Below the pieces are notes generated by a model that was not told the origin of the DNA, made no database searches, and saw only the letters and a program-made list of their open reading frames with translations. A stretch of DNA of 64,000 nt from Nitrosovibrio sp. Nv17 (GTDB lineage: Bacteria; Pseudomonadota; Gammaproteobacteria; Burkholderiales; Nitrosomonadaceae): the NCBI RefSeq assembly GCF_900119085.1, contig NZ_FPIQ01000004.1, positions 62,001 through 126,000 of the forward strand, written 5' to 3'. A program made the translations under genes and the position numbers. Positions 1 to 15,386 of the stretch are shown here, in pieces (positions within the stretch are counted from its first letter, which is position 1; every line of letters starts with the position of its first letter).

Positions 1-3000
1 AAGCCCACGGCAAGGATGCCAACCGCCTCTCCAGCCTGTCCGGCGAAGGCCGCTCCTCGGCCACCACCATGATTGCTCTGGCGGCCTTGCAGCAATTATT
101 CGCACTTCCTGAGCCGGCACCAGGCCTGCCTGATCCGCGCAAGTTGCTTGGTTTTACCGACAATCGCCAGGATGCCGCTCTGCAGGCGGGACATTTCAAC
201 GACTTCATTTTCCTGCTGACGCTGCGCGCCGGCTTGATCAGTGCACTCCAGGGCAGCGGCGGCCAACTCGATGAAGAACACTTGGCCGAAAGCGTATTCA
301 AGGCCCTTGGTTTTCAAGGGGTCGATGAAGCGACCTTGGTGGAGTATCTGCGCACGCCCAAGCTCATGGGACTGGCCCGGCAGGAGGCGCAACGTACATT
401 ACGCTTCATCATCGCCTACCGGCTGCTACGTGATCTGCGGCGCGGTTGGCGTTTCAATAATCCGAATCTGGATCAGCTTGGCTTGTTGCAGATTCGGTAT
501 CGAGACCTGGATGCCTTTTGCGCTGACGCCAGCATCTTTGCTGCAAACAGCACCTTGTCCAAATTGACGGCTGCTCAGCGGGCAGTTTTGTACGAATTGT
601 TGTTCGACGCCTTGCGTCGCCATCTGTGCCTGGAAAGTCGTTATCTTGACCCAGTTGAGCAGGACAAGGCACGCACCAGCGCCTACACCTACTTGAATGA
701 ACGTTGGGCTTTCACTCCCGACGAGAAGCCCGATACTGGCCGCTATCTCATCCTCGGCAAGCGCCCGGAATACAAGGGCAAGCCGCGTACCGATCTGGTG
801 ACAGGTGGTCCACGCTCCCGCCTGCTGCGGCAAATAAAGACGGCCGCCTTCTGGCGCAACAGCGCCTGCACCAGCGAGGTTGCACAGTGGAAAGATGTCG
901 AGTGGACTAAGCTGATCGAAGCTCTTCTGGAGTCCGCCAAGGACTATGGCTATGTGCAGCGCCAACCTATCGACGCCCAGCTCGCAGGCTGGCGCCTGAA
1001 CGCGGCTGCCCTGGACTGGTGCCTGATTGCCGATCAGCCGCAAACTGACAGCAGCGGCATCAATCAGTATTTCCGCGCCCTGTATCTCGGCATTGCCGAC
1101 CTGCTGCGTCGGCCCTCGCATCCGCTGTTCGACTTCGAGGCCCAGGAACACACGGCCCAGGTGGATGCGCCACGCCGGCAACTGCTGGAGCAGCGTTTTC
1201 GCTACACCGAAAAAGACAGGCAGGATTGGGCCCAGAACCTGGCCCACGAAGCGCCGTTGGAACGTCTGCCTGTGATGTTCTGCTCCCCCACGATGGAGTT
1301 GGGCGTGGATATCTCCGCGCTCAACACCGTGTACCTGCGCAATGTGCCGCCGACCCCCGCCAACTACGCCCAGCGCAGCGGCCGTGCGGGTCGCTCGGGT
1401 CAGCAGGCGTTGGTCATCACCTACTGCGCGGCACTCAGTCCGCATGACCAGTGGTTCTTCCACAATGCCGAGCAAATGGTGCATGGCGTAGTGCGTGCGC
1501 CAACCCTCGACCTGAGCAATCGCGATCTCATCGACAGCCATCTGCAAGCGGTCTGGCTGGCCAGCACCCAGGTGCCGCTGGACGACAGCATTGCGCCCAT
1601 GCTGGATCTTGATCAGCCCGGAAAACCACTGAAACAGCCCTTGCACGAAGCGCTACGGGCGCAGGCTGTCCAGCAGCGGGCCTTGGCCAGTGCCGACCGG
1701 GTCATCGACCAGCTTGAGGGCGAGCTTGAAGGCAGCACCTGGTTCACTCCTGACTATGTGCGCCAGGTCATCGACAACGCGGCGCAAGCGTTCTCTGGGG
1801 CGCTGGAGCGCTGGCGCGTGCTGTTCGATGCAACCCGCCAACAGATGGATATGGCTGATCGCATCGTCAAGAGCCATACCGCCTCGCACACTGAGCGGCA
1901 AAATGCCCAGCGCCGCTACGGCGACGCCGCGCGCCAGTACGCCGTATTGCTCAAGTCCGGCAACGGCCAGAACAATGACTTCTATACCTATCGCTACTTG
2001 GCCAGCCAAGGCTTCCTGCCAGGCTACAACTTCCCGCGCCTGCCGCTGATGGCCTGGATTCCCGCCCGTGGCGGCCAGGCCGTCAACGGCAAGGATGACG
2101 AAGGCAGCATGGTCAGCCGGCCGCGCTTCCTGGCCCTGTCCGAATTCGGCCCCCGCAGCCTCATTTATCACCAGGGCCGCATGTACCGCGTGGTGCGTGC
2201 CAAACTCAACGTAGGCAATACAGACCACATTTCCGGCAACAGCCAATTGGCAACTATTGCCTCTCTAGTGTGCAGCCAGTGTGGCTACGGCCATCTCGGC
2301 GAGCCGGGCGGCGAACAGCCGCTGGTCAATCGCTGCGAGAACTGTGATGCCTTGCTCACCGAGCACGATTGGGTGCGCGAGCTCTACCGTATCGAAACCG
2401 TAGAAACTGTGGCCACCGAGCGCATCTCCATCAACGACGAGGAGCGCCAGCGTCAGGGCTTCGAGCTGCAAACCACCTACCGTTTCCTGCCCGGCCCCGA
2501 TAGCCGTATCCAGCAGCAGAAGGCCACGATCCAACAAGGCGAGGACGTGCTGGGCGAGCTCACCTACGCGCCCGCTGCGCAAATCTGGCGCATCAACCGT
2601 GGCTGGCGCCGGCGCAAGGACAAGGAGCAACTGGGCTTCTACATCAACCCCATCACGGGCACCTGGAGCAAGCATGATGCACCGGATGCGGAAGACGACA
2701 AAGGCGGCGACGATGCTTTGCTGGAGAAGGTGCCCAACCAGCGCATCGTTCCCTTTGTGGAAGATCATCGCAATCTGCTGATCTTCGCTCCCGTACATGC
2801 CCTGTCTCTGGAGGCCATGGCGACGTTGCAGGCCGCGCTCAAGCGCGGCATCGAAATGACCTTCCAGATCGAGGAATCCGAACTGGTGGTCGAGCCACTG
2901 CCGAAGTCCGACGAGCGCCGCGCCTTGTTGTTCTACGAAGCGGCCGAAGGCGGTGCGGGTGTGCTCACTCGCCTGGCAAACAATCGCGACGACCTTGCAC

Positions 3001-3548
3001 TCGTAGCCAGCAATGCCCTGCAACTGATTCACTATCTCATACCACAGAGCGGCATTTGGACGCTGGACGATCTGCCGTCGATGGAACAGACCGATGTGCT
3101 TGGCAATCATCAGTGCGAAGCCGGCTGCTACCAGTGCCTGCTGTCCTATTTCAACCAACCGGACCACGAACACATCAACCGCCGCAATGCGGATGCGCTC
3201 AAGCTGCTGGTCGCTCTGACCAATGCCCAGGTGCAGCCTGTAACGAGCAGCTCGGCCACCGTTGCCGCGACGACCTCAGCAGACGAGCTATTCGACGCTT
3301 GGCTGTCCGCGCTCCGCCAGGCAGGGGCTATACAACCTGATGCGGTCAACGTGTCCGTCAACAATGGCGCAGCCATCGCCGCGGCCCAGTACAAGGCACC
3401 TCGTGCTTTAGTGTTTCTGTTCGAGATGGATGAGCAGACCACCGGCGTATTGCAGGACAAAGGCTGGCAGGTGCTCGATTTTTCGGACGCTTCACGCTGG
3501 CCGCAGCAATTCGCCGCGCACGCCGATGTGTTCGGTTCCAAGGAATAA
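1..3548 (+). CDS. Superfamily 2 helicase with C-terminal DUF1998-like domain, defence operon (5' partial)
   Basis: The reading frame is open from the first bases of the window, so the N-terminal ATPase lobe (Walker A, DEAH) lies upstream. What remains is the second RecA-like lobe: LLGFTDNRQDAAL near nt 140-180, then a long insert, then MELGVDIS (about nt 1290) and the arginine-finger motif QRSGRAGRSG (about nt 1370). A zinc-ribbon-like CSQC...CENC follows at about nt 2270-2345, then EGGAGV (about nt 2950) and a cysteine cluster CEAGCYQC (about nt 3115). This layout is that of DUF1998 helicases such as MrfA, Druantia DruE, or a DrmA-DrmB fusion. Family knowledge suggests an ATP-driven DNA translocase in phage defence. 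The next gene starts 6 bp downstream, so it is the first visible gene of an operon. DruE versus DrmAB-like cannot be decided without the missing part. Confidence 0.85.
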   Translation, partial: AHGKDANRLSSLSGEGRSSATTMIALAALQQLFALPEPAPGLPDPRKLLGFTDNRQDAALQAGHFNDFIFLLTLRAGLISALQGSGGQLDEEHLAESVFKALGFQGVDEATLVEYLRTPKLMGLARQEAQRTLRFIIAYRLLRDLRRGWRFNNPNLDQLGLLQIRYRDLDAFCADASIFAANSTLSKLTAAQRAVLYELLFDALRRHLCLESRYLDPVEQDKARTSAYTYLNERWAFTPDEKPDTGRYLILGKRPEYKGKPRTDLVTGGPRSRLLRQIKTAAFWRNSACTSEVAQWKDVEWTKLIEALLESAKDYGYVQRQPIDAQLAGWRLNAAALDWCLIADQPQTDSSGINQYFRALYLGIADLLRRPSHPLFDFEAQEHTAQVDAPRRQLLEQRFRYTEKDRQDWAQNLAHEAPLERLPVMFCSPTMELGVDISALNTVYLRNVPPTPANYAQRSGRAGRSGQQALVITYCAALSPHDQWFFHNAEQMVHGVVRAPTLDLSNRDLIDSHLQAVWLASTQVPLDDSIAPMLDLDQPGKPLKQPLHEALRAQAVQQRALASADRVIDQLEGELEGSTWFTPDYVRQVIDNAAQAFSGALERWRVLFDATRQQMDMADRIVKSHTASHTERQNAQRRYGDAARQYAVLLKSGNGQNNDFYTYRYLASQGFLPGYNFPRLPLMAWIPARGGQAVNGKDDEGSMVSRPRFLALSEFGPRSLIYHQGRMYRVVRAKLNVGNTDHISGNSQLATIASLVCSQCGYGHLGEPGGEQPLVNRCENCDALLTEHDWVRELYRIETVETVATERISINDEERQRQGFELQTTYRFLPGPDSRIQQQKATIQQGEDVLGELTYAPAAQIWRINRGWRRRKDKEQLGFYINPITGTWSKHDAPDAEDDKGGDDALLEKVPNQRIVPFVEDHRNLLIFAPVHALSLEAMATLQAALKRGIEMTFQIEESELVVEPLPKSDERRALLFYEAAEGGAGVLTRLANNRDDLALVASNALQLIHYLIPQSGIWTLDDLPSMEQTDVLGNHQCEAGCYQCLLSYFNQPDHEHINRRNADALKLLVALTNAQVQPVTSSSATVAATTSADELFDAWLSALRQAGAIQPDAVNVSVNNGAAIAAAQYKAPRALVFLFEMDEQTTGVLQDKGWQVLDFSDASRWPQQFAAHADVFGSKE

Positions 3549-3554
3549 AGGCGC

Positions 3555-6344
3555 ATGACGATCCTCGAACACGACTTTCTGCCCGGCAACCTAGTGCGCG
3601 CCCGAGGCCGCGAATGGGTGGTGCAAAGCGACTCCCACCGAGACTGGTTGCGCCTACGCCCATTGAGTGGTGCCGATGACGAAAGCATCGCCCTGATCCC
3701 CGAGCTGGAACTGCATCCCGTCGAACCTGCTACCTTTGACTGGCCCGATCCCGCACGCGCCGGCAACCATGCCGCCGCGCTGTTGCTACGCGATGCCTTG
3801 CGCCTAACCCTACGCGCCGGCGCCGGCCCGTTCCGCTCCTTTGGCAATATCGCCGTGGAGCCTCGCGGCTACCAGCTTGTGCCGTTGCTGATGGCACTGC
3901 GCCTGTCCACGGTGCGCCTGCTGATCGCTGATGACGTAGGCATCGGCAAGACCATCGAAGCCGGCCTGATCGCACGCGAACTCATGGATCGCGGCGAAAT
4001 TGCCCGCCTCGCCGTCCTCTGCCCGCCGCACCTTGTCGAACAATGGCAAAGTGAGTTGGAAATTCGCTTCAATCTTCAGGCTGTGGCGTTGACTTCAGCC
4101 TCGGCCTCCCGCATCGAACGTGATCTTCCGCATGGTGTGCGCCTGTTCGACCATCATCCCGTGGTGGTCGTCAGCCTGGACTACATCAAGAGTGAACGCC
4201 ACCGCGAACAGTTTCTCGCCACCGTCCCCGAATGCATCATCGTTGACGAGGCCCACACCTGCGCCAGCAGCGGCACAGGCAAGCAATTGCGCTTCGAACT
4301 GCTGCAACGCCTTGCCCGTGACGCGCAGCGACACCTGATCCTGCTGACCGCCACTCCCCACTCCGGTGACGAAACTGCCTTCTACAACCTGCTGTCGCTG
4401 CTCGATACACGCTTTGCCGCTTTGCAAGGTCGCATGACGGCCTCCGACCCATTGCGTCAGGAACTGGCCCGCCACTTCGTCCAGCGCCGTCGCAAGGACA
4501 TCGTTGAATGGCAGGTCGAGACCCATGATGGACGTGGTTTTCCCCGCCGCATGAAAACCGAGCTCACTTACCAGCTCAGCGGCGAATGGGGCGCGTTCTT
4601 CGACGTCGTGCAGGATTACTGCCGCGAACTGGCTGAAACAATTGAGCAGCGGGAACAACAAGGCGGCGCCCGCCTCATCTGGTATGCCACTCTGGCATTG
4701 CTGCGCTGCGTGGCGTCGTCGCCCGCTGCCGCCATCAAGGCACTGACCACGCGGCTGGAAGGTACCGTGTCAGATGACGCCCTCCTCAGTGATGAACGCT
4801 TGCACGATGGTGAGGCCGACGACCTCTCCGGCAGTGATCTGGAGCCGCCTGCTCAAATGCAGGACGCTGCGCCGCGTCTGCAAGCCCTGATCGCCGACGC
4901 GCAACGTCTCTCCGGCAAGGCCGGTGATCCCAAGCTGGCCGCGCTCATCTGGCATATCGACCTTCTGTTGAAGGATGGCTACCACCCGGTGGTGTTCTGT
5001 CGCTACATCGCCACCGCCCACTATGTGGCCGAGCATCTCAAGGCCGCTTTCCCCAAAGCCACCGTCGATGCCATCACCGGCGAACTTACTCCCGAGGAAC
5101 GCCGCGAGCGCGTGGACGACATGGAGGATACCGAGCAACGCATCCTGATCGCTACCGATTGCCTCTCTGAAGGCATCAACCTGCAACATCTGTTCACCGC
5201 TGTCGTCCACTACGACTTGGCCTGGAACCCCACCCGCCACGAACAGCGCGAAGGCCGGGTCGATCGTTTTGGTCAGCAGGCCGACGAAGTGCGTTGCACC
5301 ATGCTCTACGGGCAGGACAACCCGGTCGATGGCTTCGTGCTCAATGTCATCCTCCGCAAAGGCGAAGCCATCCAGAAGGAACTGGGCGTGCTGGTGCCAC
5401 TGCCCGAGGACGAAGCTCGTATCAACCAGGCTCTGGTCAAGGCCGCGCTGATGAAACGCAGTGACAGCCGCACTTCATCGCCGCAAGCCGCATTCGACTT
5501 CGGTGAGCCGGAGCAATTGCTCGCTCCACTGCAAGCTCAATGGCGTGACGTGCTGGAAAAAGCCAAGGCCAACCGCACTGTGTTCGCCCAGCGCCGCATC
5601 CGACCCGACGAAGTGCTGCCCGAATGGCACAAGCAGCAGCAGGCCCTCGGCACCCCGACCGACGTGCAACGCTTTCTGCAAAGCGCCTGCGTGCGGCTCG
5701 GTTCACCGCTGGAAACAGGCCGCAAACAGAGCGCCCGTTTCCTGCCGCAGCACCTGCCCGAAGCCTTACGCCAACGCCTGGCCGACGAAGGCATCACTAC
5801 GCCCCTGTCCATTGACTTCAGCGAACTGCACCGCAGCCACCCGCTGGTCGGCCTGCTCGCCCAACACCTGCTGGAAGATGCGCTTGGTAGCGAACGTCCG
5901 CTGGCCGCCCGCTGCGCCGCCACCCTGACCGAAGACGTCGAAGTCGTCACCACCCTCTACCTGCTGCGCCTGCGTCACCAGCTCAGCTACGTGCGCCGCC
6001 GCGAGCCGTTCCAGATGATGGCCGAGGAAACCGTGACGCTGGCCGTGCAGGGCCGCAACGCCCCGCAATGGCTGACTGACGAAAACGTCAGCCGCCTGTT
6101 GGAATGCACGCCCAGCGGCAACCTGCCACCCGAGGCCATGCAGCGTGAAATACGCACCGCGCTGGATTTTCTTGCTGCGCACCCACAGCAACTGCAAGCA
6201 CTGGCCAGACAGCGTGCCGATGCCCTGCTGGCCGACCACCAGCGCGTGCGCGCCGCCGCCCGCGACGTGGGCCAGCACAGCGTCAGCCCGTGCCTGCCGG
6301 TTGATGTGATGGGCGTGTACGTGTTGCTGCCGGAATCGCTCTGA
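3555..6344 (+). CDS. SNF2/RapA-type helicase, DrmD-like, defence operon
   Basis: This 929-residue protein is a double-lobe SNF2-type ATPase. Lobe 1 has Walker A DDVGIGKT (about residues 126-133), the DEAH box VDEAHTC (about 230) and motif III TATPHSGD (about 266). Lobe 2 has TDCLSEGINLQ (about 534) and EQREGRVDRFGQ (about 562). The lobes resemble RapA and the DrmD helicase of DISARM class 1; there is no nuclease motif I can see in the 300-residue C-terminal tail. It sits 6 bp after the DUF1998 helicase and 17 bp before the AlbA_2 gene, so co-transcription is likely. The expected role, inferred from family and context, is translocation on or remodelling of invading double-stranded DNA. A plain transcription-recycling RapA is unlikely given the neighbours. 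Confidence 0.88.
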   Translation: MTILEHDFLPGNLVRARGREWVVQSDSHRDWLRLRPLSGADDESIALIPELELHPVEPATFDWPDPARAGNHAAALLLRDALRLTLRAGAGPFRSFGNIAVEPRGYQLVPLLMALRLSTVRLLIADDVGIGKTIEAGLIARELMDRGEIARLAVLCPPHLVEQWQSELEIRFNLQAVALTSASASRIERDLPHGVRLFDHHPVVVVSLDYIKSERHREQFLATVPECIIVDEAHTCASSGTGKQLRFELLQRLARDAQRHLILLTATPHSGDETAFYNLLSLLDTRFAALQGRMTASDPLRQELARHFVQRRRKDIVEWQVETHDGRGFPRRMKTELTYQLSGEWGAFFDVVQDYCRELAETIEQREQQGGARLIWYATLALLRCVASSPAAAIKALTTRLEGTVSDDALLSDERLHDGEADDLSGSDLEPPAQMQDAAPRLQALIADAQRLSGKAGDPKLAALIWHIDLLLKDGYHPVVFCRYIATAHYVAEHLKAAFPKATVDAITGELTPEERRERVDDMEDTEQRILIATDCLSEGINLQHLFTAVVHYDLAWNPTRHEQREGRVDRFGQQADEVRCTMLYGQDNPVDGFVLNVILRKGEAIQKELGVLVPLPEDEARINQALVKAALMKRSDSRTSSPQAAFDFGEPEQLLAPLQAQWRDVLEKAKANRTVFAQRRIRPDEVLPEWHKQQQALGTPTDVQRFLQSACVRLGSPLETGRKQSARFLPQHLPEALRQRLADEGITTPLSIDFSELHRSHPLVGLLAQHLLEDALGSERPLAARCAATLTEDVEVVTTLYLLRLRHQLSYVRRREPFQMMAEETVTLAVQGRNAPQWLTDENVSRLLECTPSGNLPPEAMQREIRTALDFLAAHPQQLQALARQRADALLADHQRVRAAARDVGQHSVSPCLPVDVMGVYVLLPESL

Positions 6345-6361
6345 AGGGACATGACCACACC

Positions 6362-7741
6362 ATGATCGAAACCGAAACCACCGAGCTGAAGAAGTCTCTG
6401 GCCGAATTGAAACAGGGGCTGGTTTCTCTGGCCGCCATGCTCAACAAGCACGGTCAAGGCGAGCTGTGGTTCGGCATTGCACCAAACGGCAAAGCCGTGG
6501 GGCTGAACGTGAACGAGAAGACCCTGCGCGACGTGTCCCAGGCGATTGCTGCGCATATCGAGCCGGCCATCTATCCACAAATCACCCAACAGCTCATTGA
6601 GGGCAAGCATTGCCTGCAAATCAAGGCCGAGGGCTGGCAGCAGCCTTATCTGGCATATGGTCGTGCTTACATGCGGGTGGCCGATGAAGATAAAAAACTC
6701 AGCGCCAGCGAACTGAAGAATCTCATCCTGCAAAACAACCAGGATGCGCTGCGCTGGGAAAATGAACCAAGCGGTCTGACGCTGGAACAACTGAACCCCG
6801 AAAAAATCAGCCGCTTCCTTGCGCGAGCCAACCTGCCGCAAGACAGCGCCGTCAGCGCCCTGGAAAAACTCGACCTGTTGCGCCAGGGTGCGCCCATCAA
6901 CGCCGCCAAACTGTTCTTTGCCGACGTGCCCATTCAGTTGCGCTGCGCAGTATTTGCCACCACCACAAGCTCCACCATCATCGATCGTCACGACTTCGAC
7001 GGCGACATTCTCGAACTGATCGAAGAAGCCGAAAAATACGCCCTGAAAAACATCCACATTGGCATGAGGCTGGAAGGCTTGCTCCGCGTGGACGTGCCCG
7101 AAATCTCCCTCAAGGCCATCCGCGAATCGCTGGTCAATGCCTTCTGCCACCGCGACTGGCGCGACCCGGATTTCGTGCAGGTTGCCGTGTTCAAAGATCG
7201 CCTGGAAATCCGCAGCCCCGGCAGCCTCTACGGCAACCTGACCTTTGACGAGATACGCCAGGGCAACATCTCCCGCCGCCGCAACCCCAAAATTGCCGAA
7301 CTGCTGCGCCGCATTCATCTGGTGGAAGCCTGGGGCCGGGGGGTGCCGCTGATTCTGGAAAACGCACCGGATGCCGGCTTCGTCGAAATCGGCGGGCTGT
7401 TCATCACCCGTTTCAAGCGCCCGTCGGCGCTGGAGACGGTATCGGAATCTGTCCCTGAAACCGGTCTGAAAACATCAGTTACTCCGCCAGAAACACCAAG
7501 AAAACACCAAGAAAACACCAAGAAAACACCAAGAAAACACCAAGAAAACACCAGGATGCTGCTGCTTCACCAGTTGCAGCAACAACCCGAATCCAGCGTT
7601 CGTTTCTTGGCTGAAGCGCTCGGCGTGAGCGAAGCCAGTGCACGTCATCACCTACGCCGCTTGCAAGCAGAAAACAAGGTTCGTCGTGTTGGCCCCGACA
7701 AAGGCGGCTACTGGGAAGTCATCGGCGAGGACAAGCCATAA
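6362..7741 (+). CDS. Schlafen AlbA_2 domain protein with C-terminal winged helix, defence operon
   Basis: This 459-residue protein begins with an AlbA_2 (Schlafen-type) domain: ETTELKKSL at the N-terminus and GELWFGIAPNGKAVGL near residues 36-51. A RecG-related ATPase-like region follows (AIRESLVNAFCHRDW about 257-271, then RNPKIAELL). The C-terminal 60 residues form a helix-turn-helix (FLAEALGVSEASARHHLRRL). Between them lies a low-complexity linker coded by an 11-bp tandem repeat at 7491-7554. The unit is not a multiple of three, so copy-number change would remove the winged helix. AlbA_2 proteins are often regulators or accessory factors of defence loci; a regulatory or nucleic-acid-binding role is inferred here. 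The methylase ATG lies one base after its stop codon, suggesting translational coupling. Confidence 0.85.
   Translation: MIETETTELKKSLAELKQGLVSLAAMLNKHGQGELWFGIAPNGKAVGLNVNEKTLRDVSQAIAAHIEPAIYPQITQQLIEGKHCLQIKAEGWQQPYLAYGRAYMRVADEDKKLSASELKNLILQNNQDALRWENEPSGLTLEQLNPEKISRFLARANLPQDSAVSALEKLDLLRQGAPINAAKLFFADVPIQLRCAVFATTTSSTIIDRHDFDGDILELIEEAEKYALKNIHIGMRLEGLLRVDVPEISLKAIRESLVNAFCHRDWRDPDFVQVAVFKDRLEIRSPGSLYGNLTFDEIRQGNISRRRNPKIAELLRRIHLVEAWGRGVPLILENAPDAGFVEIGGLFITRFKRPSALETVSESVPETGLKTSVTPPETPRKHQENTKKTPRKHQENTRMLLLHQLQQQPESSVRFLAEALGVSEASARHHLRRLQAENKVRRVGPDKGGYWEVIGEDKP
7491..7554 (+). repeat. 11-bp tandem repeat (about six copies) in the AlbA_2 coding sequence
   Basis: The unit AAAACACCAAG is present as a 10-base first copy (7491-7500), four full copies (7501-7544) and a final copy (7545-7554) that diverges from the unit at its last A. 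Three units code for 11 residues, so only copy-number changes in multiples of three preserve the frame. In the other two frames translation would stop at TGA 7612-7614 or TGA 7626-7628, within about 25 codons. This is the architecture of a slipped-strand phase-variation tract; switching itself is inferred. Confidence 0.95.
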
Positions 7742-7742
7742 T

Positions 7743-10700
7743 ATGAAACGCACTCGCAAAACCCAGGCCACGCTCGACCTGCCCACCCTCAAGCTCGAAG
7801 GCGGGCTGTTCCTGCCCGGCCAACTTGAAAAAGCTGCCCAGAGTCGCGCCAGCGCACAGCTTGAAGCCGACTACGGCACCCCCAAGGGCGTCAAACTCAA
7901 GGACGAATACAGCCGTGCTTTCCAGATCGCCTGCGCCCAGTGGCAGCACTTCGCTACACAAATGGAACGCGCCGATGTCGATGCCGCGCAGTGCACCACA
8001 GCCTTCGTCCACGAACTGCTGCGCGACGCCTTTGGCTACGCCACCTTGCAAGCCACGGCAGCACAGCAAGTGGGTGAGCTGCGTTACCCGGTCAGCCTCA
8101 TGGCTGATACCTTGCCCGTCCTGGTGGCACCACACACTTTGGGCCTGGACGCGGCCGACGCGCGGTTTGCCGTGCAGGGCGGCGGCAGCCGCAAGAAAGC
8201 CTCGTTCCAGGCGATGCAGGAATTGCTCAACGCCAGTGAACCGCTGCAATGGGGTATTGTCAGCAATGGCAAGCAACTGCGCCTGCTGCGCGACGCTGCC
8301 AGCCTTACCCGCCCCAGTTTTCTCGAAGTCGATCTGGCCGACCTACTCGGCGGCCAGCGCTATGCGGAATTCGCCAATGTCTGGCGCTTGCTGCACGCCA
8401 GCCGCGCATCCCGCCCCGGCCAGGGCGCTACGGCGTGCATCTGGGAACAATGGCGCAACGAAGGCCAGCAGGAAGGCACTCGCGTGCGCGACGGCCTGCG
8501 CAATGGTGTCGAGCAGGCCCTGCTGACCTTCGGCCAAGGCTTCCTGCAACACCCCGCCAACCACGCCCTGCGTGCTGCCCTGAACGACGGTACGCTCAGC
8601 AAGGATGCCTATTTCCAGCAACTGCTGCGCCTGATCTACCGGCTCATCTTCGTCTTCACTGTTGAAGAGCGCGGTGTGCTGCACTCGCAGGACGACAGCG
8701 CCGAAGCACTGGCCGCCCGCCGCGCCTATGCCGAAGGCTACGCCTTGACACGTCTGCGCGAGCTGTGCCTCAAGCGCCGCGCCCGCACCCGGCACGACGA
8801 CCAATGGCAGGCCATCCGCATCGTTTTCCGCGGGCTTGCGCAGGGCGAGTCACGCCTGGCCCTGCCCGCGCTGGGCGGCCTGTTCGCGCCTGAACAATGC
8901 CCAGATCTGGATGTCGCCAGCCTGGACAATGCTTACCTGCTCGCCGCCCTGCAATACCTGCGCTGGGCAAAACCGGTCGGTGCGCAACGCCTGGTGCCTG
9001 CGGACTACTGCAACATGGGCCCGGAGGAGTTGGGAAGCGTGTATGAAAGCCTTTTGGAACTGGTGCCCGCCATTGACCTGCCCGCCCGCATCTTTGGCTT
9101 CATCGGTCGTACCGAGGAAGGCAGCACCGTCGGCAACGCCCGTAAACTCACCGGCAGCTACTACACCCCCGACAGCCTGGTGCAGGAGCTGATCAAGAGC
9201 GCGCTCAACCCCGTCATCGAACAGCGCTTGGCCGCCCAGCCGGCCAACCCCACCGAAGCGCTGCTGGCCATACGCGTCATCGACCCGGCTTGCGGCAGTG
9301 GCCACTTCCTGCTGGCCGCCGCTCGCCGTCTGGCGGAAAAGCTGGCCCAGTTGCGCAGCCTCGAAGACGGGCAGGAAGGCGCCATCCAGCCGCAGGACTA
9401 CCGTCATGCCCTGCGCAAGGTTGTGGCTCGCTGCATCTACGGCGTGGACCGCAACCCCATGGCCATCGAACTGGCCCGCATGGCCTTGTGGCTAGAAGGC
9501 TACGAGGAAGGCCGCCCGCTGGGCTTTCTCGACCATCACCTGCAAGTGGGCGACGCCCTGTTCGGCCTGACCGACCTGACCGGGCTGAAACAAGGCATCG
9601 CCAAGGATGCCTTCAAGCCCTTGAGCGGCGACGACAAGGACGTCTGCAAGGAACTGGCCAAAGCCAACGCCGCCGGCCTCAAGCAGATCGCCAAAGACCT
9701 GCAAGGCAAGCAGATGCTGCTGGGGGTGGACAACCGCAGCGGCCTGGAAGCCTTGCGCGCCATCGAAACCCTGCCCGCCGACACGCCCGAACAGGTGGCC
9801 GCCAAGGAACAAGCCTGGCGTCGCTTTCTGGAGGAGTCCGCCCACAGCCCGTTGGCCCACGCCGCCGATGCGCTGGTGGGTGCCTACCTGCTGGCCAAGA
9901 TGGAGGACACGGCCGACACCGTGCCCACCAGCATCATCCTGCATGCGCTGCTGACCGCGCCGGAACGTGCCCAGACCGAGCATGCCGCCCCCATCGCCGC
10001 CGCGCGCGAGGCCTGCGAACAGGCTCGCGTGTTCCACTGGCCGCTGGCTTTTCCGCAGGTGTTCACAGAGGGCGGTTTTGATTGCGTGCTGGGCAATCCA
10101 CCTGGGAGCGCATCAAGCTGCAGGAGGAAGAATTCTTCGCCACCCGCCACCGCGACGTGGCGGAAGCCCGCAACAAGGCCGAACGCGCCCAGCGCATCCA
10201 GTGGCTCAGTGAGGGCATATTGGCGCGCCACCTGTACCCAGACCTGGCCCACGAAGCGCGTGAGGACGAAGCTGAAAAACGCCTTTACCGCAAATTCGTC
10301 ACCGCCCGCCGTACGGCGGAGGCGGCCAGCGTGTTCGCCCATGTGAAAGGCGCTGACGGTGGCCGTTACCCGCTGACTGGCGTGGGCGACGTGAATACTT
10401 ATGCGCTGTTTGCCGAAACCATTTTGCAAATCCATGCCGACAGTGGCCGCGCCGGCTTCATCGTGCCCACCGGCATTGCCACCGACGACAGCACCAAGAC
10501 GTATTTTTCGTACTTAACGCAAAACTCCAAGTTAGTAAGTTTGCAGGCATTCGAAAATGAAGAATTTATTTTTCCGTCTGTACATCATTCATTTCGTTTC
10601 TGCTTAATCACGCTTGGACGCGCTGGCCAAGCTGAATTCGTTTTTTTCGCGCGACAGCCAAGTCAAATACATGACCTGCACCGCCGCTTCACCCTCACGC

Positions 10701-12649
10701 CCGATGAATTCCGCCTCATCAACCCGAACACGCTCACCTGCCCAGTATTCCGCAGCCAGCGCGACGCGGAACTGACCAAGAGGCTCTACCACGCCGCCCC
10801 GGTGTTAATGCGTGATGCTGTGGTCGAGGGGGAAGGCAAGCAAGCCAAGATGGTGGAATCCGCGCAAAACCCGTGGGGCATATCGTTCATGACTATATTC
10901 CACATGTCGAACGACAGCCACTTGTTCAAGTATGAGTCGCCCCCCGACTGCTTGCCGCTGTACGAAGCCAAGCTCATCCACCAGTTCGACCATCGCTGGG
11001 CCACCTACACGGCGGACGGCAACAGCCGCGATGTCACGTTGGCCGAAAAAGCCGACCCTGAATTTACCGTCACCCCGCGTTACTGGGTGCAAGCCCGCGA
11101 GGTCTGGCTGCGCGTTGCCCGCCTGCCCGAAGGATTGATGAAAGCCCTCAAGGATGGCAACACGCAGGCCACCATGCTGTGCGTGACCCAGTTGCTGTTT
11201 GGCTGGCACCTGGCCGAACAGCGCCACACTAATCCAAATATGGGCATGTACCCTGCCTGGAAAGCCTTTGTCGCCCGACACCCCTATGCGCAGGCCATCG
11301 CGCCCACGTCGCTGGGTTTTGTCGGCAACAGCCCAGCAAGCCTGCAACCACTGAACGACGACTACCTGCCCGCCGAAGGCGAAGCCAAGCTGCAGCCCTA
11401 CGTGCCCGGCGCCCGCAGCGCTACCGCTTGGTACGCCACCGACCCCGAAGCCGAGTGCGCCGTACTGGTATTCGCCGCCGAGTACGGCCATCTGCCTGCA
11501 TTGGAAGCATCCTTGACGGCCGAACCCGCCGTGCTCGCCTTGGCCGAACGCTGGTTGCAGGGCTCCTGCCCGCAGTGGTTGATGGGGTGGCGGGATATTA
11601 CGAGCGCACATGTATATCGGACGGTGATTGCGTCGGTGATGCCGTTTTTGGGGGTGGGGCATACCATCCCGCTGTTCACCACGACGGCGAATGCGCGCCT
11701 GACAGCCTGCCTTTTAGGCAATCTGTGCTCATTGATGCTTGATTATTGTGCTCGCGTAAAAGTGGGCGGCACGCACCTGACCTATGGCTATTTGAAGCAA
11801 TTCCCGATCCTGCTACCTGAACGCTACACCAAAGCCGATCTCGCCTTCATCGTCCCGCGCGTCCTGGAACTGACCTACACCGCCCACGACCTCGCCGCCT
11901 GGGCCAAGGATTTGGGCTTCGAAGGCCCACCCTTCCCCTTCGACCCCCACCGCCGCGCCACCCTGCGCGCCGAACTCGACGCCTACTACGCCAAACTCTA
12001 CGGCCTCACCGAGGAAGATCTGCGTTACATCCTCGACCCCGCTGACGTGATGGGTGACGATTACCCCAGCGAAACCTTTCGTGTGCTCAAGGACAAAGAG
12101 CGCAAGGAATTCGGCGAATACCGCACGCAACGGTTAGTGCTGGCGGCTTGGAAACAGTTGGAACAAGAGCCGTCTGTCCTCATCCAGCAAGCTCAGCCTG
12201 CTCGTCCAGTCACACCATTCCGAACCTATGCGGCGGGCCATACACCAGCAACCGAAGGCGAGGATTGGCTGGCAGGACTGGTCTGCGACATTCTCCTGCA
12301 GGGGGGTTCCTGCGATGACATTCGCCTACGTCAAATCCTGCTGACAACCTTGCCAGAGTCTAACTCGCATAGAGAGCTTCTGACCGAGTGGTTGCAGCCG
12401 ATCAATAGCGAACGGTGGTTGCATATCTGTGCCTGGCTTCGCAGCCTGCTGGGTGTGCCGACAACTGCGCCCCTGGTCATCCATGATTCCGAAGGTTTGA
12501 CACAGGTGTTGGGCGACAATCGTACGGCGTCGCTTGCCAGAGCACTGATTGAGGCAAGGCAACAACAGGAGTCAGCCCTGGAGGAGGCGCTAGTCACGCC
12601 AGAATCAGCCATGCAAACGGAAAGTCTGAAAAAAAGGGATAAGAGATGA
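7743..12649 (+). pseudogene. Large adenine-specific DNA methylase (DrmMI/PglX-like), interrupted by a one-base frameshift
   Basis: Two overlapping frames encode one protein of about 1635 residues. Frame one starts at ATG 7743 and remains open to 10346; frame two is open from about 10082 to 12649. The first part ends in the methylase domain: GSYYTPDSLVQELI, the SAM motif DPACGSGHFLLAA (about residues 515-527) and motif IV NPP at about 785-787. The DNA reads AATCCACCT then GGGAGCGC; one added T after CCT would give NPPWERIK and join the frames, so a T is missing at about 10103. The second part holds the target-recognition and C-terminal domains. The predicted job is host DNA adenine methylation for self/non-self recognition, as in DISARM class 1, BREX or type IIG systems. 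The break is in the catalytic motif, so the enzyme should be dead unless the deletion is a sequencing error. An internal TTG at 10082 could restart the second half, but no ribosome-binding site is evident. The stop overlaps the next ATG. Confidence 0.85.
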
Positions 12650-14589
12650 ACGTAGTCGGTATTCCAGCATCACTTTCCACAAAACCCCACCTATGGGTGG
12701 AGACCATGTGGCTGCTGGAGTCACTGACGGTGAATAAGCCCTTGCGCGAGATACCGTTGCGTCAAGGACTCAACCTGATCGTATCTCCGCCCGGAAAAGA
12801 CAGTTCCGGGCATGGTGTCGGGAAAACCGCTTTTTGCCAATTACTGCGATTCGCACTGGACGACCCTCTCTGGTCCGAGGGATCGGCGTTGCGCGATGAA
12901 CTGCTGCAAAACCGGGATCTGAAGGAAGGGGCTGTAGCAGCCCGTGTGCATGTCGGTGGAGAAACATGGACCGTTCTGAAACCGTGGGGATACCAGAAGA
13001 TGTACCGTGCTTCCCGAGCTTCAGATTGGCGGCAATTGGCCGACGGTAGTGTAGAAAACGAATATCACGCCTACCAGAATGCACTGCGGCGGCACTTTGT
13101 CGAAACCTTGCCGGTTCAGGAATTGCCTGGTTCCGGACAGCCTATTGAATGGCACCACATTCTGGCCTGGTGCTCCCGCGACCAAAACGCCCGATACCAG
13201 CATTACTTCCAATGGCGTGCAGAAGGTGTCCGGTTCAGTTTGCCAGCGAAATCACCTCTTGCTCTCGTACAGATCGTGTTGGGTCTCCTGCACGACGACA
13301 CGACACTGCGTGACCTGAATAGCACAACCAAAGCTATAGAAACCCAGAAGTCAAGGTTGGATCAATTACGGGAGGAACCCGCACGTTTGATGAACCATGT
13401 GCGTCGCCAATTGGCCAATCGCCTTAAAGCGCCAATCAATACGCCCTTCCGTCAAGAAGGATTGATCGAACATCCCAACTTGATTGATATTGCCAGGCAA
13501 CGCCACGAGTCCTATCAACAAGAGTTGCAATCCATTGAAAAAGAGAGACAAACTCTTGCAGGTGAGCGTCAAAAATGGCTGGAGAAACGGACGCCACTGA
13601 GTGGCGTCGTGAGTTTGCTCGTCAATGAAATCGGGCAGATGGAAGCGTTGATTGCTGGCGATACCGAGCAGTTAGAGGCATTGCAAAGTGAAGCAGTATC
13701 ACTGCAGCAGAATCTTTCAAAGCATTGCGATGCAGGAAATCGCCAGCTCAAAGATTGTCATCACGTCATTGAACGCATCGAACAAGTTCAAATTGATCGA
13801 AAGCAGCGCATCGTGCTTCATCAGCAAACCAAAGAATCCCTTGAGAGTCTTCTAATTCCTCTACGGCGTCGTTTGGACGAACTAGAGAATGAGGTAATGC
13901 CGATTGATAGAGAGCTAACCGACATTGATAAAGAAAATATTGAACTGGATAAGAAATACGCTCAATCATTGTCGAATAAGCAGCTACTCAACGAGGCTAT
14001 CGAAGACTACGAACACTACAAAAGCCTTGCATCAGGAAAATCACATTCGGCTGACATGAATGTGGCACAGCGCAAGCTGGATTCAGCCCGACGTCGCCTC
14101 GACCAATTGCAGCTGCAGCTTGAGAACGAGAAGCAGGCAGTCGCAGGTCGTCGTAGAGAAATCAGTGAAGCCATGATGGCGGTTGCCAAATCGCTACCTT
14201 CTTTCCAGTGGGGTGTTTTTAACGATGAAGAGAAACACCGCAATCACCCTTTCCAGATGGGGCCAGTGCACTCAACCACATACAGGGTATTGGAAATACT
14301 TGCAGGCGATGTTGCTTGCCTGCTCGATAGTGCTCAGGAACAGAGCTTTCATCCCGGATTCCTCTTACACGATTCTCCCCGTGAGGCAGAAATGAGCGAA
14401 TCCATACTCTGGGCGCTACTTGGACATGTCGCAGAAAATGGCAGTGACTCGCTGCAATACATTGTCATTACCTCGACAGAGCCACCTGAATCTTTCACGG
14501 ATTTTGAGCGTCATAGGCTCTCAACAGATAGCATGGACGGGCTTCTTCTTCGCAAGCGCCTGAGTGTAGAACAAGCGTCGTTGACATGA
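12646..14589 (+). CDS. SMC/ABC-3C-like coiled-coil ATPase, defence operon
   Basis: This 647-residue protein has an N-terminal P-loop-like segment (SSGHGVGKTAF, about residues 50-60) where the first Walker A glycine is a serine. It is followed by a long central region rich in charged residues and glutamine that is predicted coiled coil (about 220-520), and a C-terminal Walker B-like FLLHDSPREAEM (about 580). That is the layout of SMC/Rad50-like or DUF2326/ABC-3C ATPases. I do not recognise a named family member. The ATG overlaps the methylase stop (ATGA), and its own stop overlaps the HNH gene start, so the three are translationally coupled. Its base composition is visibly more AT-rich than its neighbours, which suggests a separate origin. 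An ATPase that loads or controls the adjoining HNH nuclease is inferred. Confidence 0.8.
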   Translation: MNVVGIPASLSTKPHLWVETMWLLESLTVNKPLREIPLRQGLNLIVSPPGKDSSGHGVGKTAFCQLLRFALDDPLWSEGSALRDELLQNRDLKEGAVAARVHVGGETWTVLKPWGYQKMYRASRASDWRQLADGSVENEYHAYQNALRRHFVETLPVQELPGSGQPIEWHHILAWCSRDQNARYQHYFQWRAEGVRFSLPAKSPLALVQIVLGLLHDDTTLRDLNSTTKAIETQKSRLDQLREEPARLMNHVRRQLANRLKAPINTPFRQEGLIEHPNLIDIARQRHESYQQELQSIEKERQTLAGERQKWLEKRTPLSGVVSLLVNEIGQMEALIAGDTEQLEALQSEAVSLQQNLSKHCDAGNRQLKDCHHVIERIEQVQIDRKQRIVLHQQTKESLESLLIPLRRRLDELENEVMPIDRELTDIDKENIELDKKYAQSLSNKQLLNEAIEDYEHYKSLASGKSHSADMNVAQRKLDSARRRLDQLQLQLENEKQAVAGRRREISEAMMAVAKSLPSFQWGVFNDEEKHRNHPFQMGPVHSTTYRVLEILAGDVACLLDSAQEQSFHPGFLLHDSPREAEMSESILWALLGHVAENGSDSLQYIVITSTEPPESFTDFERHRLSTDSMDGLLLRKRLSVEQASLT

Positions 14590-15386
14590 ATTTTCTGCAA
14601 CGCGCACTTATCGAGAAAGCTGGCCATGACAACGGCTTCGAGCACGTGCTGGCATCCGCTGGCGACGTGGTGACACTGGCCTCTGCCCGCCACCGAAGCC
14701 AGGCGGTGGTGACGGCATCGGCCGACGGCTTCGACGTGCGCTTTCAATCAGGCACGCCCCTGCTGCTGCCGGAGCTGCTGCGCAGCTTCCAACCCTGGGC
14801 CGGAGTCGATGACGTGTTTTGCGTGCCCACCCTAGCCGACTTAGCAGCTCTGCTGCGCCGTGCAGCCAGCCTGTCGCAGGCGTTGCCGAATCAGGTAGTG
14901 CGCGACTACCACGCGGCTGTCGAGCAGGCTGTAGAGGCGCTGTCTGTCGAGAGCCGCGGCACGGAAGGGGAACGCCTGGTGCGCCAGCGCGTGGGGCAGG
15001 AACATTATCGTGACGCCTTGCTGACCTATTGGGGCGGTGCCTGCGCAGTGACTGGCGTCACAGTGACCGAGGCGCTGCGTGCCAGCCATGCCAAGCCGTG
15101 GGTGGAATGTGTCGAAGATGCTGAGCGGCTGGATGCCTTCAACGGCTTTCTGCTGGTGGCGAATCTCGATGCGCTGTTCGATCGCTTTATGATCAGCTTC
15201 GACGATATCGGGAATCTGCTGACCAGTACCCACTTGTCCCAGAGCGATCTGCACAGACTTGGTGTCCACCCAGGTATGATGTTGCGCTGGCTGGCCAGCG
15301 AGCACCGGCCTTATTTGCAGTGGCACCGGGCGCGTTTCCTGCTCGGTGCCCGATCGAGGGAGAAAGCATGGCCAAGGCCGAAATGA
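14586..15386 (+). CDS. HNH endonuclease (HNH_2-like), defence operon
   Basis: This 266-residue protein has an HNH_2-type nuclease domain in its second half: a CAVTG turn at about residue 153, ASHAKPW (about 165-171, with the likely catalytic histidine), then NGFLLVANLDALFDRFM. The N-terminal 130 residues are not recognised and may bind DNA or the partner ATPase. The start ATG overlaps the ATPase stop as ATGA. An HNH nuclease paired with a coiled-coil ATPase in a methylase/helicase operon suggests it is the cutting effector; this is inference. The 3' end contains the start and ribosome-binding site of a further, truncated gene. Confidence 0.85.
   Translation: MNFLQRALIEKAGHDNGFEHVLASAGDVVTLASARHRSQAVVTASADGFDVRFQSGTPLLLPELLRSFQPWAGVDDVFCVPTLADLAALLRRAASLSQALPNQVVRDYHAAVEQAVEALSVESRGTEGERLVRQRVGQEHYRDALLTYWGGACAVTGVTVTEALRASHAKPWVECVEDAERLDAFNGFLLVANLDALFDRFMISFDDIGNLLTSTHLSQSDLHRLGVHPGMMLRWLASEHRPYLQWHRARFLLGARSREKAWPRPK

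Follow-up and report, generated by a model that had tools for sequence, protein, structure and literature searches.

Proteins that combine a Schlafen-family RNase, a minimal histidine-kinase-like ATPase and a winged helix-turn-helix (wHTH) have been described and tied to BREX and related systems (PMC12839542). Here we consider a gene of this kind in a 64,000-nucleotide stretch of Nitrosovibrio sp. Nv17 (contig NZ_FPIQ01000004.1, positions 62,001 to 126,000; the window), together with relatives at loci designated by L numbers. As in the parts of that paper on which we draw, the domain order, predicted here from sequence, is SLFN_AlbA_2, HATPase_c_4, wHTH, and relatives adjoin BREX genes (L159, annotated) and type I restriction-modification (R-M)-like genes (L055, read from translations). 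The window gene differs in that an 11-bp tandem repeat encodes part of the linker ahead of its wHTH; linker repeats are unmentioned in those parts, 12 of the paper's 26 places, and a literature search at the level of titles and abstract openings returned nothing on repeats in this Schlafen-type family. Judging from the patterns among relatives set out below, there is about an even chance that the linker-coding DNA also serves as a row of binding sites for the wHTH encoded just downstream.

Tandem repeats at one linker across a Schlafen-type family

An 11-bp tandem repeat lies inside the open reading frame (ORF) at 6362-7741. The unit, AAACACCAAGA, occupies 7491-7553 (period 11, 5.7 copies, 100% match, score 126 by Tandem Repeats Finder), and the array reaches 7556 when a sixth copy with one mismatch is counted. 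It is the top-scoring of 46 Tandem Repeats Finder rows in the window, with a highest score of 63 in 50 mononucleotide shuffles of the same DNA, and its G+C content is 36.5% against 57% for the host gene. The gene and its parts are as follows.

6362..7741, plus strand: SLFN_AlbA_2, HATPase_c_4 and wHTH protein of 459 amino acids (ORF and Pfam)
7439..7543, plus strand: disordered interdomain linker, residues 360-394 (AlphaFold2)
7491..7556, plus strand: 11-bp tandem repeat AAACACCAAGA, five perfect copies and a sixth with one mismatch (Tandem Repeats Finder); 7491-7553 corresponds to residues ~377-398
7538..7726, plus strand: C-terminal wHTH, residues 393-455, with the recognition helix at residues ~424-436 (Pfam and AlphaFold2)

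The protein has the domain characteristics of a COG2865-like Schlafen regulator or effector. PF04326 (SLFN_AlbA_2, residues 3-113, 53.6 bits) and PF13749 (HATPase_c_4, residues 271-339, 66.7 bits) both exceed their curated cut-offs, and a C-terminal wHTH is found both by Pfam (HTH_24, residues 397-440) and in an AlphaFold2 model built with 40 relatives. The closest solved structure by sequence profile is 3lmm (E 2.5e-17). In the model, body and wHTH (393-455) are ordered and residues 360-394 between them are disordered (predicted local distance difference test score, pLDDT, below 50, and ~31 at the centre), so the repeat encodes the linker and the beginning of the wHTH.

Arrays of this kind recur at the same place in the family. 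One scan of a genome collection gave 71 loci, most of whose close relatives of the window gene have a tandem repeat at the equivalent linker, and more loci came from 510 genome searches with an ATPase-domain profile, in four draws that overlap partly with each other and with an earlier set. A linker array was found in 92 of 197 distinct tails (at least 70 residues; score 50). Of these arrays, 61 have a period of 12 bp, 18 one of 11 bp and eight one of 21 bp, and periods of 10, 13, 18, 24 and 33 bp occur once each; the types include an 'AGTC' type and a 'AAGACTACAGGA' type. In a second new set of 88 tails, from which eight already-seen ones had been removed, 29 had an array, with a period of 12 bp in 23, 11 bp in six and no other period. 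Outside the masked linkers, just 11 comparable arrays were present in 1.07 Mb (the 71 loci and the window), and five of these belong to the same Schlafen-type family by unit and position. The linker arrays are direct repeats with a near-helical period, like those of operators and iterons.

Some relatives depart from this arrangement. The 21-bp arrays of L189, L238, L239 and L253 apparently lie elsewhere, far ahead of the C-terminus in a longer protein, and L028 has an NGAD-coding 12-bp array at its extreme C-terminus, behind a wHTH-like part. In L086-L088 (10001-10700) and L091 (10001-10740), the body is internally deleted, including the HATPase part, with linker and wHTH still in frame (L087 and L088 judged by ORF length only). 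On the Azotobacter salinestris plasmid L159, the gene at 1165-2628 lies between brxC and pglX and carries a GAGTCGCGGCTA array.

Unit DNA, the recognition helix and cassette exchange

If the repeats just altered the length of a hydrophilic spacer, the DNA sequence of the units would be incidental. This reading is consistent with the predicted disorder of the linker, and close relatives do differ by whole 12-bp units (L086 and L088, L075 and L076, L051 and L056). The silent sites argue otherwise. In an automated comparison of eight groups of loci, each sharing a repeat tetrapeptide, codons were identical in 80 of 88 pairs, with a fraction of 0.37 expected from the codon use of each gene and 0 of 5000 resamplings reaching that level; this set kept both L053 and L055, whose wHTHs are 95% alike. 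In a hand-picked version that omitted L053, L055 and L086 (wHTH at least 90% like a retained one), 58 of 60 codon pairs were identical, whereas same-residue codons of the same pairs agreed at 0.47 in the wHTH and 0.48 in the body. Moreover, 11-bp units occur read in all three frames, and no unit of 9 or 15 bp was found among the 92 linker arrays. We therefore regard a role at the level of the peptide alone as decidedly unlikely.

Unit sequence could also in part be predicted from the wHTH. A prediction fixed before new loci were added, that AGTC occurs in the unit ahead of 'QKYRLT'-type wHTHs, held for 8 of 12 12-bp arrays (1.6 expected, a count slightly lowered by taking the L218 unit from the array edge) and then for 7 of 8 (2.2 expected, P 0.0002). 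The motif is encoded in two reading frames in these arrays, A-GTC (GAA GTC) and AG-TC (GAG TCA). Across loci, unit similarity tracks the similarity of the recognition helix after correction for the rest of the wHTH, with a partial r of 0.54 for 27 loci (one of them, L038, with its wHTH wrongly cut) and 0.52 for 22 later-fetched loci (including L328, which has the wHTH of the exploratory locus L078), and 0 of 2000 permutations in each set reached these values. The converse figures, for the remainder of the wHTH after correction for the helix, are 0.33 and 0.30. Unit and recognition helix covary across the family, as would be expected of operators or iterons, although these statistics treat loci as independent and the figures are therefore inflated by shared descent.

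Several observations weigh against sites of this kind. Because an array is passed on jointly with its wHTH, part of the covariation comes from common ancestry. Among the tails examined, 105 of 197 have no array at score 50. Ahead of QKYRLT-type wHTHs, only 4 of 9 11-bp arrays contain AGTC (2 of 5 and 2 of 4), though the shorter AGT is present in all 9 as a plain count with no null model. A second prediction, CGG for Glu-type helices, fared weakly (4 of 5 with 1.6 expected, then 5 of 7 with 2.8 expected, P 0.057), and for the other advance predictions the new loci offered a single independent example, L290 (Lys with ACTACCC), which fits. In a cross-frame comparison within the window's superclass, 12-bp units were resembled as closely by synonymous recodings as by the actual 11-bp units (8.11 and 8.09 of 11, respectively); the DNA-level constraint evident in the 12-bp classes is therefore unproven for the 11-bp class of the window. 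Given this lack of excess, the DNA reading for the window itself rests on its likeness to L042 and L077, whose wHTHs are 53% identical to its own and whose units are closely alike, and on the family as a whole.

Further copies of the unit in a promoter or flank, which operators or iterons might be expected to have, were not found in the flanks of 37 loci or in the 12.3 kb upstream of the window. The doubled unit of each locus was not enriched in its own flanks relative to foreign units (mean rank fraction 0.62), in a comparison where flanks need not extend to every promoter, and no copy with two or fewer mismatches was present in those 12.3 kb; no second operator was found on these two counts. 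Some of the high foreign-unit matches in the flanks are paralogous or orphan cassettes.

As far as ~7430, the window operon is 91-92% identical to those of L032 (Achromobacter), L033 (Pseudomonas oleovorans) and L034 (Ectothiorhodospira). It loses all nucleotide similarity over the segment below and regains it from 7688, where the next stretch is 83-89% identical; L035 shows the same pattern.

7436..7687, plus strand: exchanged cassette, with no nucleotide similarity to L032, L033 or L034 (short repeat-to-repeat matches in L034 excepted)

Operons of Chlorobi repeat this picture. Their hsdM-like gene and the body of the Schlafen-type gene are 91-93% identical, similarity is gone at the linker, and hsdR-like sequence is again 91-94% identical (neighbour names here are readings of translations, not profile matches). 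Three wHTH classes, with one repeat type per class, are found on six Chlorobi bodies, each of which is ~96-98% identical to the nearest of the others. The repeat type thus goes with the wHTH type and not with the body, and the two travel as a cassette swapped among operons that are ~90% identical elsewhere. In L168, which has two wHTHs, an array of its own stands ahead of each. Pieces consisting of a body end, a linker array and a wHTH adjoin an intact gene in L072 (11858-12397) and L055 (3398-3881), and these orphans are possible cassette remnants.

The break in similarity at the linker start, in both the window group and the Chlorobi operons, and the orphan linker-wHTH pieces in L072 and L055 would also fit an array that serves as a landing pad for exchange of the wHTH cassette, or as a site for another factor. 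However, the swapped alleles carry different units, so the array offers little sequence shared by the two sides of a swap, and the conserved flanks would suffice for homologous exchange. We find a recombination joint, or a site for another factor, very doubtful.

Reading frame and operon context

The original prediction had read the array as a plausible phase-variable switch: slippage of 11-bp units would put the wHTH into or out of frame, so that the protein, and perhaps also the coupled translation of the gene behind it, would alternate between on and off states. Recomputation returned the same repeat coordinates, the same stops in the two alternative frames (7612-7614 and 7626-7628) and the same position for the methylase ATG. 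A pure 63-bp array with a unit that is not a multiple of three (non-3n), in a gene whose own frame runs on from 7440 to the TAA at 7739-7741 while both alternative frames stop early, is formally what a contingency gene would have.

A census of frames in relatives bears on this idea in both directions. Among 326 regions, a wHTH was found in 206, and body and wHTH were in frame in 97 regions and out of frame in three with 3n arrays, 27 and five with non-3n arrays (out of frame: L085, L089, L102, L126 and L173), and 73 and one with no array; removal of four weak non-3n rows (L058, L116, L086, L087) leaves 23 in frame and five out. Frame breaks are more frequent with non-3n arrays (5 of 32, compared with 3 of 100; Fisher p 0.02). 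In a distant family, the Coriobacteriaceae loci L089 and L102 share an 11-bp unit, have copy numbers two full units apart and are both out of frame; the two-copy difference can be read as accounting for their differing frames. On the other hand, L102 has a second frame break and L085 is a fragment, and the frame is intact in 27 of the 32 regions with non-3n arrays, a share well over one third (p 4e-9, with loci taken as independent). The family's most frequent unit, in 61 of 92 arrays, is 12 bp, with which no frame shift is possible, and the unit DNA of the 12-bp classes is constrained and linked to wHTH type, neither of which would be needed for a frame switch. The switch is thus partly supported, by the non-3n unit, the early stops and the excess of frame breaks, but the frame and period counts and the constraint on 12-bp units leave phase variation a rather unlikely account of the array.

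Searches for copy-number variants or further copies turned up no sister strain of the window. A blastn search of E. coli for copy-number variants gave no match, and viral contigs had no exact match to a 20-base repeat pattern and no confirmed protein match. Plasmid relatives considered for a comparison of copy number, E. coli IncC L155, P. syringae L157, Y. ruckeri L158 and K. quasipneumoniae L160, all lack the wHTH tail. L272 is a frame-broken allele whose 12-bp unit contains a run of seven C (GTTACCCCCCCA). Classical simple repeats were seen at L046 7292 (TAATGGA x12.3, a little upstream of an ORF read from its translation as hsdM-like), L049 5377 (AGCAC x13.8) and L094 8325 (ACAGC x12).

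The array gene lies among the following genes of the window.

69..3548, plus strand: DruE-like helicase, C-terminal portion of a longer gene whose start lies before the window (profile matches; upstream part visible in L119 10264-12300)
3555..6344, plus strand: SNF2 helicase; best PADLOC match DpdE, second DrmD (profile matches)
7743..10346, plus strand: N-terminal part of a methylase (DrmMI-type); compared with four relatives, its frame is broken near 10101, at the NPP(W) motif
10082..12649, plus strand: C-terminal part of the methylase, in a different frame
12646..14589, plus strand: LmuB-like protein (profile match)
14586..15386, plus strand: HNH nuclease (profile matches)

The DISARM core, drmA-drmB, was not found among the matches listed for seven window ORFs (the top 25 for two of them) and five of nine upstream ORFs: matches to DpdE/DrmD and DrmMI are present, DrmA is weak and never best, and there is no DrmB. 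The methylase ATG (7743-7745) does start one base beyond the TAA of the AlbA_2 gene, as had been noted in support of coupled translation. Yet the methylase is split over two frames (overlap 10082-10346) and is one base shorter at NPP(W) than in L032, L034, L035 and L086, by mutation or by assembly error, so the proposed effect on the methylase is moot in this genome, assembly error excepted.

Putative self-encoded sites and known systems

We favor the reading that the linker DNA is a set of sites for the protein it encodes. In this model, the adjoining wHTH would have about one predicted site in every 11 or 12 bp of the array, roughly a helical turn, and array and wHTH would be exchanged as one cassette while the Schlafen-like AlbA_2/HATPase body that carries them is conserved. 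Protein molecules would come back to the gene that encodes them and line up on its 3´ part. Bound protein could limit transcription into the next gene, which is the methylase in the window and R-M genes or pglX in relatives, or the protein could be kept inactive on the array until invasion releases it. Frame slippage might then be the price of the 11-bp version or, now and then, a way of switching it off. The binding, the regulatory outcome and the extension of the model to the 11-bp class of the window are inferred.

More broadly, and tentatively, since we put its chances a little short of even, a large, phylum-spanning, defence-linked Schlafen-type family may encode its own recognition sites in the linker, one per helical turn whatever the reading frame. 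Linker and wHTH would then move as one cassette of specificity, and the DNA target of each protein could be read from its linker. If so, well over 100 genes in our sample (132 of 206 wHTH-bearing regions have a linker array) would spell out the DNA target of their own protein, and the role of uncharacterised defence proteins would become directly testable. A DNA-binding constraint would be shaping a protein linker. The same reading would account for the recurrence of 11- and 12-bp repeats in this one position in different phyla, and it would caution against taking a non-3n repeat in a defence gene, by itself, for a phase switch.

Three kinds of known system invite comparison. Simple-sequence-repeat contingency genes of R-M systems, for example in Haemophilus, also have a non-3n tandem repeat within a gene of a defence operon, and the case for them rests on strain variation; here, by contrast, most alleles are in frame, and the unit DNA of the 12-bp classes is tied to a DNA-binding domain. 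EcoR124-type HsdS proteins have 12-bp repeats encoding TAEL in a spacer where peptide length matters, and thus share tandem 12-bp, four-residue units in the interdomain linker of a defence protein, but in the Schlafen-type genes silent sites are conserved. Operators are known inside genes, and iteron arrays are bound by wHTH replication proteins; the linker arrays resemble both in having direct repeats at about helical spacing and sites within a coding region. They would differ in that the putative sites encode the linker of the presumed binding protein itself.
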